Source: Dehalococcoidia bacterium (GTDB lineage Bacteria > Chloroflexota > Dehalococcoidia > Lucifugimonadales > UBA3495). From it: 64,000 bases of DNA. Both the position numbers and the translations under genes were made by a program. The stretch is taken from the NCBI GenBank assembly GCA_022827095.1, contig JAJDTP010000010.1, positions 1 to 64,000 on the forward strand, given 5' to 3'. Below are positions 4,745 through 7,059 of this stretch, in pieces; within the stretch, counting starts at the first letter, position 1; the number at the start of each line of letters is the position of its first letter. The notes beneath the pieces were generated by a model. It saw only the letters and a list, made by a program, of their open reading frames with translations, did not search any database and had not been told where the DNA came from.

Positions 4745-5620
4745 ATGACGACAGTAGGCTCCGGCAAGTACACCTACACCCTAGAAGAGAACTGGGCGCG
4801 CCTGCCCGAGGGCATGACCATGGGCAACGCTTCGGCGGTGGCGACCGACTCGCAGGACCGGGTTTACGTGTTCCAGCGCAAGGACCCGCCCGTGCTCATC
4901 TTCGGGCCGGGCGGCAACTATCTGGGGTCGTGGGGCGTGCGCGCCATCGACGAGGCCCACGGCATCTACATCCAGGACGACATCGTCTACATCACTGACC
5001 GCACCGACTCGGTGTGCGTGATCTTCACGTTGGACGGCAAGCCGCTGCAGGTCATCGGCGACCGGGGCGTCCACTCGGACACCGGGTGCGAGGTGCCCGG
5101 CGAGGTTTGCCCGCGCTCGGCGGGGCCGTTCAACTATCCCACCGAGATCGTGCCGGCGCCCAACGGCGACCTGTACGTGTCCGACGGATACCGCAACGCC
5201 CGGGTGCACCGCTTCTCCAGCGATGGACAGCTGAAGCAGTCCTGGGGCGAGCCGGGCAAAGGCGGCCCGGGCGAGTTCCACCTGCCCCATAGCATCGTGG
5301 CGCATCCCAATGGCAATCTCTACCTGTGCGACCGTGAGAACAACCGGATGCAGATCTACTCGCCCGACGGCGAGCATCTTGCCATGTGGGAGGACATGCG
5401 GCGGCCGCTGGACATCTCCATCGACAGCGAGGACAACCTGGTCATCAGCGAGGGCGGGGTGAACGGCATGTCGCCTCGCGTGAGCATCATGGACCCCGAC
5501 GGCAACGTTCTGGCCCGCTGGGATTCGCAGTCGGCGCACGGCAGCTGGGTCGATGTCCACGGCAACATCTACATGGCGCTGGGCGCGCAGGAGCGCGTGG
5601 ACAAGTACGTGCGGCAGTAG
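4745..5620 (+). CDS. NHL-repeat beta-propeller protein
   Basis: A 291-residue protein made of NHL-type repeats (VATDSQDRVYVFQRKDPPV, PNGDLYVSDGYRNARVHRFS, HPNGNLYLCDRENNRMQIYS, EDNLVISEGG) that fold into a propeller. It resembles the lyase domain of peptidyl-alpha-hydroxyglycine alpha-amidating lyase, but no catalytic set can be assigned safely. There is no signal peptide. I chose the ATG at 4745, 7 nt after a good Shine-Dalgarno (AGGGAGG), over an in-frame TTG at 4739. It follows the hydrolase gene by 64 bases and may share its transcript. Confidence 0.8.
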   Translation: MTTVGSGKYTYTLEENWARLPEGMTMGNASAVATDSQDRVYVFQRKDPPVLIFGPGGNYLGSWGVRAIDEAHGIYIQDDIVYITDRTDSVCVIFTLDGKPLQVIGDRGVHSDTGCEVPGEVCPRSAGPFNYPTEIVPAPNGDLYVSDGYRNARVHRFSSDGQLKQSWGEPGKGGPGEFHLPHSIVAHPNGNLYLCDRENNRMQIYSPDGEHLAMWEDMRRPLDISIDSEDNLVISEGGVNGMSPRVSIMDPDGNVLARWDSQSAHGSWVDVHGNIYMALGAQERVDKYVRQ

Positions 5621-5749
5621 GACGCTATCACCCGGTTGTCGCCAGCGTTGTAAATCGGCGATACGCCCCACAACAGAATATTGTTGCGGGGCGCGTCGTT
5701 CTGTTCCTGGATCGTATAAAGAGTTGTTGCAGCCCAGGAGTAGGCCGGT

Positions 5750-6349
5750 ATGGAAACGCCAACCCAATTTACGCAGGATCCGGACAAGGTGATCGAATCG
5801 GTCATTTACATGGCCGAACAATCCAAGGCTGACGCTTACTTCGGCGAACGCAAGGTGTATAAGCTGCTGTATTACGCCGACTGTGAAGCGTACAGGCAGC
5901 ACGGCGCGCCCATCACGGGCACCATGTACGTCCACTATCCTCATGGCCCGTTTCCGGAGAACTGGCAGACGTTGAAAAAAATGATGCTAACGGCCGGCGA
6001 TGTGCAGATATTGGGCAGCGACCCCCGGGAAGGTCGTAAGGATCGCGGACGCAACCTGATTTACCCGCAACGGTCGGTCAGGGAGGGCATCCTTACCCCG
6101 GAAGATTGCGCGATTCTGGCAGCGCAGGTAAAACGATTCGCCGGCTTCAACTTCGCGGGGATTGAAGAATACGTGCAGGAGGAAGCAGGATGGTTTACGA
6201 CGGATGACGGCGACACGATTCCGTATGAGGCGTCCGGAATTTCAGCCCCGCCGTTGAGCGCGGATGGGGTCAGGAGGGGGAACAGCATTGCTGAGAGACG
6301 TGCCCGGCAACAGGCCCCCGTACGAAGTCAGGGAGACAGCCCAGTTTGA
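5750..6349 (+). CDS. Panacea-domain antitoxin (SocA-like / DUF4065)
   Basis: A 199-residue protein with the Panacea domain (formerly DUF4065, SocA-like): the N-terminal helix with VIYMAEQSK, the signature KVYKLLYYADCEAYRQHG, TGTMYVHYPHGPFP and the C-terminal region ILTPEDCAILAAQVKRF. Panacea proteins neutralise many different toxin folds in two-gene toxin-antitoxin systems. A second small gene starts inside its 3' end with a strong ribosome binding site, the usual toxin-antitoxin layout. Its role as antitoxin is inferred from the domain and the overlap. Confidence 0.8.
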   Translation: METPTQFTQDPDKVIESVIYMAEQSKADAYFGERKVYKLLYYADCEAYRQHGAPITGTMYVHYPHGPFPENWQTLKKMMLTAGDVQILGSDPREGRKDRGRNLIYPQRSVREGILTPEDCAILAAQVKRFAGFNFAGIEEYVQEEAGWFTTDDGDTIPYEASGISAPPLSADGVRRGNSIAERRARQQAPVRSQGDSPV

Positions 6350-6587
6350 TGCTGACTGGCGCAGGGAAATCCAGCTTGGAAATCTGAATCCCATGTTGGC
6401 GCCTTCCGATTTGCTGTTCATCAAAATGCTGCTGGCGCAGCAACCCTACCTGGGCAGGTGGCAGCCAGGTACGCCTTACGATAGCCGCACCATAGCACTG
6501 GCCCGGGTCTTCGAGATTGGATATTACGTGGTCGAGGATGACCAAGCCGTTTACCTTGACAGCATCAGCTTTATTGGTGGGAGCTAA
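6288..6587 (+). CDS. Probable toxin partner of the Panacea antitoxin
   Basis: A 99-residue protein starting inside the Panacea gene. The TTG at 6288 lies 7 nt after AGGAGGGGG and is preferred over the ATG at 6264, which has no ribosome binding site; overlap with the antitoxin is then 62 bases. The body (YEVRETAQFDADWRREI, then a helical middle and the terminal strands RVFEIGYYVVEDD and AVYLDSISF) resembles the small RelE/ParE ribonuclease fold. The similarity is weak by eye and the catalytic residues are not assignable. The overlap with a Panacea gene is the stronger argument. Confidence 0.6.
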   Translation: MLRDVPGNRPPYEVRETAQFDADWRREIQLGNLNPMLAPSDLLFIKMLLAQQPYLGRWQPGTPYDSRTIALARVFEIGYYVVEDDQAVYLDSISFIGGS

Positions 6588-6699
6588 TCGGGGCTGTGAG
6601 CAGTGCTTGTGATACAATGCACCGTGCCGCTCGCTGCCAATGCAGTTGAGGGGTCGCTTCACCATCGATACAAGATTCGCTGCAATGCTTGGGTTTAAC

Positions 6700-7059
6700 A
6701 TGAAAGCATCTGAACTCATCACCCCAGAAGTAAACGAAAACATCCCCGAATTCGGTCCCGGAGACACCGTACGGGTCAACTTCCGGATTCGGGAGGGTAA
6801 CCGTGAGCGCGTGCAGGCCTTTCAGGGGGTGTGCATCCGGCGCACCCACGGCACCGGGCCGGCGGCCAACTTCACGGTTAGGCGGATCACCGCCGGGATC
6901 GGGATTGAACGCGTATTTCCGCTGCATTCCCCGCTGATCGAGTCGCTGGAAGTCACGCGGCAGGGTAAGGTCCGGCGAGCCAAGCTCTATTACCTGCGGG
7001 GACGGCAGGGCCGGGCCGCGCGCATCAAGGAACGGACGAGCTACCGCACCAATCGGTAG
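6700..7059 (+). CDS. rplS: 50S ribosomal protein L19
   Basis: A 119-residue L19, which sits at the 30S-50S interface. Clear family motifs are [48 protein letters not shown] and [21 protein letters not shown] chose the ATG at 6700 (MKASELI) because it matches the normal family length; an in-frame codon at 6640 would add an unconserved extension. It stands alone here, without the trmD or rimM neighbours common elsewhere. Confidence 0.96.

Follow-up and report, generated by a model that had tools for sequence, protein, structure and literature searches.

The window, by which we mean the whole 64,000-nucleotide stretch of DNA that was analyzed (Dehalococcoidia bacterium, Chloroflexota; assembly GCA_022827095.1, contig JAJDTP010000010.1, positions 1 to 64,000 of the forward strand), carries a pair of overlapping forward-strand genes between a gene for an NHL-repeat protein (4745–5620; PF01436) on the left and rplS (6640–7059), identified as ribosomal protein L19 by PF01245, TIGR01024, and synteny, on the right. 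Both flanking genes also lie on the forward strand. The first gene of the pair, panA (5750–6349), encodes a 199-aa Panacea-domain protein, the predicted antitoxin, which matches the Pfam family SocA_Panacea (PF13274) with an E-value of 1.9e-13 and 51.7 bits (cut-off, 25.7). The second, a panT-like gene (6288–6587), is read from a TTG start into a 99-aa predicted toxin whose structural model has a RelE/ParE fold. The genes share 62 bases (6288–6349) in two different frames, and a Shine–Dalgarno sequence, AGGAGG, lies within panA at positions 6272–6277 of the same strand, 10 bases 5′ of the TTG. To the right of the pair, a possible −10 region for rplS, TGTGATACAAT (6608–6618, forward strand), was recognized by eye from its likeness to sequence at several sites that have no pair, and the rplS start common to the genus is probably an in-frame ATG at 6700. 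No tandem repeats were found at the locus, and a sigma-70 consensus scan of positions 5600–6800 reported no site.

Gene calling placed the start of the small ORF at an in-frame ATG (6264) upstream of the TTG at 6288. Because close orthologs at two other loci (L006 and L007) retain the TTG together with AGGAGGGGGAA, and both lack the ATG at 6264, TTG 6288 is the likely start; AGGAGG is kept in both, and an alternative GTG at 6300 is absent from one of the two. The panT-like ORF is a real gene under selection. Pairwise comparisons among the window, genome G749, and genome G742, with the overlap excluded, yielded dN/dS values of 0.11, 0.17, and 0.15 at dS 0.26–0.34, and the corresponding values for panA were 0.10, 0.18, and 0.16. 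The window's genome also has a paralogous pair on another contig, in which the small protein is 35% and the Panacea protein 48% identical to those of the window and the genes are convergent. Since this paralog stands free, on the strand opposite to its Panacea gene, the small ORF is a gene separate from panA rather than a piece of it. A preliminary description of the locus had named a C-terminal fragment as the finding that would undo its proposal; the small gene has its own start and its own selection in addition to the free-standing paralog. The arrangement given in that description, a Panacea gene overlapped over 62 bases by a small ORF with a TTG start and AGGAGG, is confirmed by the sequence, the PF13274 match, and the starts of the orthologs.

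The predicted model of the panA product has a mean pLDDT of 80.9, with values below 50 for residues 193–199. Its C-terminal helix (residues 171–188) is modeled with moderate confidence, and we liken it, as a resemblance only, to the neutralizing Phd-like helices that another Panacea antitoxin carries at its C-terminus, as described in the part of PMC10440598 that was available. In a search for fold relatives of the Panacea protein, the best match was DarTG (7yk3), which was only weak (E 4e-3, TM 0.44–0.45) and was not used.

The structure of the small protein was predicted from 15 aligned family members, giving a model with a mean pLDDT of 86.4, a pTM of 0.77, and the element order b1-a1-a2-b2-b3-b4. 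The top Foldseek matches were RelBE2 (E 8.5e-5), HigB2 (E 2.7e-4), and RelBE1 (E 4.2e-4). When chains were compared by VIA-align, 83 of 998 reached a Z-score of 8, among them 5ceg ParE (Z 12.4, rmsd 2.4, 86 aligned), PaaA2-ParE2 (Z 12.2, rmsd 2.5, 86 aligned), RelBE2 (Z 11.1, rmsd 2.2, 83 aligned), and E. coli RelE (Z 10.8, rmsd 2.3, 80 aligned). The preliminary description had found the protein RelE/ParE-like only at its terminal strands and had suggested that the fold may be new. Neither suggestion is supported by structure prediction of the small protein alone, in which residues 10–99 align with ParE and RelE toxins; because the model has all six RelE/ParE elements, the protein is predicted to have the complete fold, which is therefore not new.

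The family is harder to place by sequence. Pfam PF05016 gave no match to the small protein of the window, and its matches elsewhere in the family stayed below threshold (E 0.083 for one of 15 members; E 0.041 and 14.9 bits, with a cut-off of 23, for the paralog). Searches of Pfam, PHROGs, NCBIfam, PADLOC, PDB sequences, plasmids, and viral contigs with the small protein or its family returned nothing significant, and a viral structure search with the model returned no match at E 0.001. The toxin family is thus unrecognized by sequence in any library used, and it looks new at that level. More distant Panacea partners at six loci (L019, L025, L026, L028, L032, and L035) look RelE/ParE-like by eye; only those of L035 (E 0.003) and L019 (E 0.004) touch the family profile, and Pfam found no toxin match for L019, L026, L032, and L035 or for L025, the last with an approximate query. 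Elsewhere in the genome of the window, on contigs C9, C14, and C31 (L101–L103), there are three ParE_toxin matches over the Pfam cut-off.

A profile of the 15 members was searched against 197 genomes, 14 of them in the genus of the window, with the best 24 candidates scored for many genomes. Among the best 24 candidates per genome, the partner was matched in 10 of the 14 genus genomes and in none of the other 183. The Panacea subfamily occurs in the same 10 genus genomes and is missing from the same four that have no partner. When 393 genomes of the class were searched with the small protein as a single sequence, only the window's own genome gave a match. At the phylum level, 12 of 400 genomes have a Panacea match at E 1e-10, and the matches outside the window's genome are 24–34% identical. 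Panacea loci on named contigs, 18 in number, are labeled Dehalococcoidia, Chloroflexota/Chloroflexi, or SAR202, plus one Bacteroidetes (L023), where no partner was detected beside the Panacea gene; these loci are not independent, because 17 of the 18 belong to genomes already counted. Since the Panacea protein has no match in plasmids and the Panacea family none in viral contigs, those collections point to neither a phage nor a plasmid as carrier.

Panacea genes of other kinds were also encountered. On contig C1 of the window's genome (L003 1372–2294), a third Panacea protein, of another type, stands beside a transposase-like ORF (by eye); the protein encoded after the Panacea gene, 127 aa long with hydrophobic stretches (by eye) and no Pfam match, is possibly a membrane-acting PanT. 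At L029 (1216–2679), an HTH-Panacea protein precedes a MazEF-like pair, both labels being assigned by eye.

The chromosomal site at which the window pair lies could be followed across the genus. rplS was found in all 14 genus genomes, and the site could be assessed in 13, the contig of G743 ending within it; in each of the 13 it lies between the NHL gene and rplS. A pair is present in five (G000, which is the window's genome, and G742, G744, G747, and G749), a toxin relic in one (G745), and the site is empty in seven (G739, G740, G741, G746, G748, G750, and G751). In the window, the pair is placed between the stop codon of the NHL gene and TGTGATACAAT, which by eye resembles the TGTGCTATAAT that stands 5′ of rplS at several of the empty sites. 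The two genes of a pair appear to come and go together, at fixed positions in the chromosome. G742 carries two different pairs, one after the other, at its rplS site. The DNA between them (L007 3831–4026) consists of rplS-leader-like sequence (by eye) together with a 76-base, 97% copy of the 3′ end of the NHL gene, suggesting that unequal recombination fused two alleles of the site.

To describe how closely the two genes are tied, we tallied 26 Panacea places. The partner is intact at 19, divergent at one (the open partner of L075/L019, E 0.004 to the family profile), frameshifted or truncated at four (G739:C46:34868, G742:C26:7432, G743:C435, and G747:C45), and absent at one (G745:2240005); the remaining place is cut by a contig end. 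The toxin-less Panacea gene of G745 (L012 2983–4184) retains no trace of a toxin and is followed by an ORF that looks retropepsin-like by eye. Conversely, two of 24 partner matches have no assigned Panacea gene: one is a further fragment of the G743 gene that is broken by a frameshift, and the other is the rplS-site relic of G745, which contains a stop and has no Panacea gene. Every intact partner found has a Panacea gene beside it. Such mostly one-sided decay, in which the partner breaks and the Panacea gene stays open, is expected of a toxin and its antitoxin; the counts are small, and frameshifts in metagenome assemblies may be errors. The exception is the nrd-site Panacea gene of G745 (L021), which has a frameshift close to its C-terminus and an intact partner next to it. 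Across the 19 intact pairs, tree distances of the Panacea proteins and their partners agree with a Mantel r of 0.71, a value reached in none of 5000 label shuffles and inflated by shared descent within one genus.

Where a Panacea place has some partner (24 places), 18 pairs are tandem and six are convergent. Because the window pair is tandem and its paralog in the same genome is convergent, the tie between the genes is independent of gene order. All six convergent pairs adjoin the same gene (74–100% identical), presumably ribonucleotide-reductase-like, a name given from its sequence; of the 16 loci searched, the remaining 10 had no match to it. In four of these pairs (L002, L014, L015, and L018), the genes overlap by 8 bases, in which the two stop codons are nested in the pattern YTANNTGA (regions L002 1786–1818 and L014/L015/L018 3520–3552). 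One convergent pair has a frameshifted partner (G743), and one has a frameshifted Panacea gene (G745).

Comparison of related pairs suggests that the partner can change behind its Panacea gene. G745 contains two tandem Panacea–toxin arrays (L009 3001–4898 and L016 2009–3847) with near-identical 5′ parts and unlike toxins, and in each an abrupt identity cliff falls inside or at the end of panA. Compared in steps of 60 bases, the DNA of copies a and b of L009 is 92–100% identical from about 180 bases 5′ of panA to codon 120, and that of L016 is 95–100% identical from 60 bases 5′ of panA to codon 160; after one transitional 60-base step (80–81%), identity is 38–66% (L009) and 52–68% (L016) across the end of panA and the toxin. 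At the protein level, Panacea residues 1–125 of the arrays are 98–99% identical and the toxins 46%. Between G747 and the window, identity is 80% over Panacea residues 1–125, 94% over residues 126–160, 45% in the tail, and 34% in the toxin. Given these identities in G745 and G747, a near-constant antitoxin core can precede different toxins of one family, and judged from the alignments, toxins seem to have been exchanged in some places while the Panacea core before them changed little. The same pattern of identities would result from gene conversion of the 5′ part.

The cliffs also suggested that the C-terminal third of the Panacea protein sets toxin specificity, an idea that we rejected as a general rule after examining the 19 pairs. 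With the Panacea protein cut at positions 125–150, the partial r for the C-terminal part given the N-terminal part was 0.05–0.10, compared with 0.43–0.47 for the reverse; a cut at 115 gave 0.25 and 0.29, and a cut at 100 gave 0.27 and 0.15, so toxin identity tracks the N-terminal part more closely at most cuts. In sliding windows over 18 pairs, r peaked at 0.68 for Panacea residues 101–130 and was 0.60 for the tail. Divergence of the tail in the cliff cases may simply follow the exchanged DNA, because the tail overlaps the toxin gene.

We interpret the locus as a type II toxin–antitoxin module of the Panacea kind, in which a predicted toxin is silenced by the Panacea protein, with a probability of roughly 0.7. 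The preliminary description had likewise predicted a Panacea toxin–antitoxin pair with a TTG start, and conservation, co-occurrence, and the decay pattern lend it support. panA and the panT-like gene would constitute a two-gene (PanAT) module: the Panacea protein would be made first from the same transcript, with its partner coupled to it through the 62-base overlap, and would bind and silence the small protein, which when free would block growth. Such co-transcription is not general, because six pairs are convergent. With less assurance, the small protein may act in the manner of ParE, binding and blocking an essential machine with no cutting of mRNA. Gyrase is the first candidate for that target, a tentative and on balance doubtful one.

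The arrangement resembles PanAT systems in that the Panacea protein comes first, a small second gene follows within 100 bases, and the pair is kept across genomes. In the available part of PMC8832971, which reports 1,268 predicted Panacea pairs, a pair is defined by two genes at most 100 nt apart in an arrangement kept in at least two species, and here the tandem pair occurs at the rplS site in the window and four further genomes, one per species, with a PF13274 score 26 bits above its cut-off. The same part names ParE among the domains of predicted PanTs, mentions eight PanT candidates that were not toxic in E. coli, and, in the first part of its section 5, describes antitoxin-first and toxin-first orders only. 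RelE/ParE is among the common folds of the wider network of PMC10440598, again in the part available. The pairs described here differ in that the partner matches no sequence family and six pairs are convergent. SocAB of Caulobacter has an antitoxin with the same Pfam domain name, but panA is far under the cut-off of the NCBIfam SocA equivalog (NF047745; 13.4 versus 190 bits). ParE toxins (ParDE and PaaA2-ParE2) share the complete fold in the model (best Z 12.2–12.4), but there is no PF05016 match over cut-off here, and the antitoxin is a Panacea protein rather than ParD or PaaA. The mRNA nucleases RelE, HigB2, and YoeB share the modeled fold as well (best chains, Z 10.8–11.1), but the C-terminal catalytic stretch of RelE is absent here and the window copy is acidic. 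The kind of system is known and the fold is ordinary; what is unusual is the convergent copies and the apparent exchange of toxins. Among the matches listed in a literature search by title and abstract opening, none dealt with this family or with Panacea pairs in convergent order.

Alternatively, the toxin of this module might be an mRNA nuclease that depends on the ribosome, like RelE or HigB, but with a rearranged active site, which we consider unlikely. RelBE2 and HigB2 are the top Foldseek matches by E-value (8.5e-5 and 2.7e-4), and RNases and gyrase inhibitors cannot be told apart by this fold (PMC10440598, available part). The last strand of the small-protein model ends at residue 95 of 99. 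E. coli RelE runs about 17 residues past its last strand, and this C-terminal stretch contains R81 and Y87, which we take to be catalytic, as we do R61. A stretch that could carry R81 and Y87 is absent from the model, which ends four residues after its last strand, and R61 aligns with Glu 76 only in a very weak match of the profile to E. coli RelE (16 columns, E 0.36). The pI of the window protein is 4.59, compared with 9.67 for RelE; among 14 family members it varies between 4.59 and 9.50, and L021, with a C-terminal extension, has a pI of 10.88. Acidity is therefore not shared by the family. Because the catalytic stretch of RelE is absent and the window protein is acidic, a non-nuclease, ParE-like inhibitor is weakly favored; the sub-threshold level of the PF05016 matches in the family counts against a ParE-like target.

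Somewhat less probable still is a conserved module in which the RelE/ParE-fold protein is not toxic and serves as a regulator or toxin derivative bound by the Panacea protein. The six convergent pairs, the broken or missing partner at five of 26 Panacea places, and persistence beside housekeeping genes would suit a harmless protein, but loss is one-sided, with the partner breaking and the Panacea gene open (one Panacea C-terminal frameshift excepted), and the fold is that of a toxin. The idea that the small ORF is a fragment or arose by chance, spanning the 3′ end of a lone Panacea gene and the DNA downstream of it, as overlap with panA and a TTG start might suggest, is refuted in practice by the present results, namely dN/dS of 0.11–0.17 outside the overlap, a homolog on the opposite strand, and a confident, compact model.

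The toxin–antitoxin reading can be extended, speculatively and with rather low probability, to a genus-specific family that holds its Panacea core and promoter near constant and swaps the toxin, together with the overlapping Panacea tail, like a cassette. If this were true, arrays would arise in which a single antitoxin core is set against several different toxins, the toxins would have a target or trigger (phage-encoded inhibitors, for example) that is under diversifying pressure, and the module would work even with its genes facing each other. Toxins of the RelE/ParE fold are normally inhibited by an antitoxin tail that is partly disordered. Since none of the ten characterized pairs in Table 1 of PMC8832971, as far as the available part goes, is labeled RelE/ParE, the window pair would be a clean way to ask how a Panacea protein silences this fold. 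The G745 arrays and the comparison of G747 with the window provide a natural test of what decides specificity, and the tail-to-tail pairs test whether a toxin–antitoxin module needs an operon.
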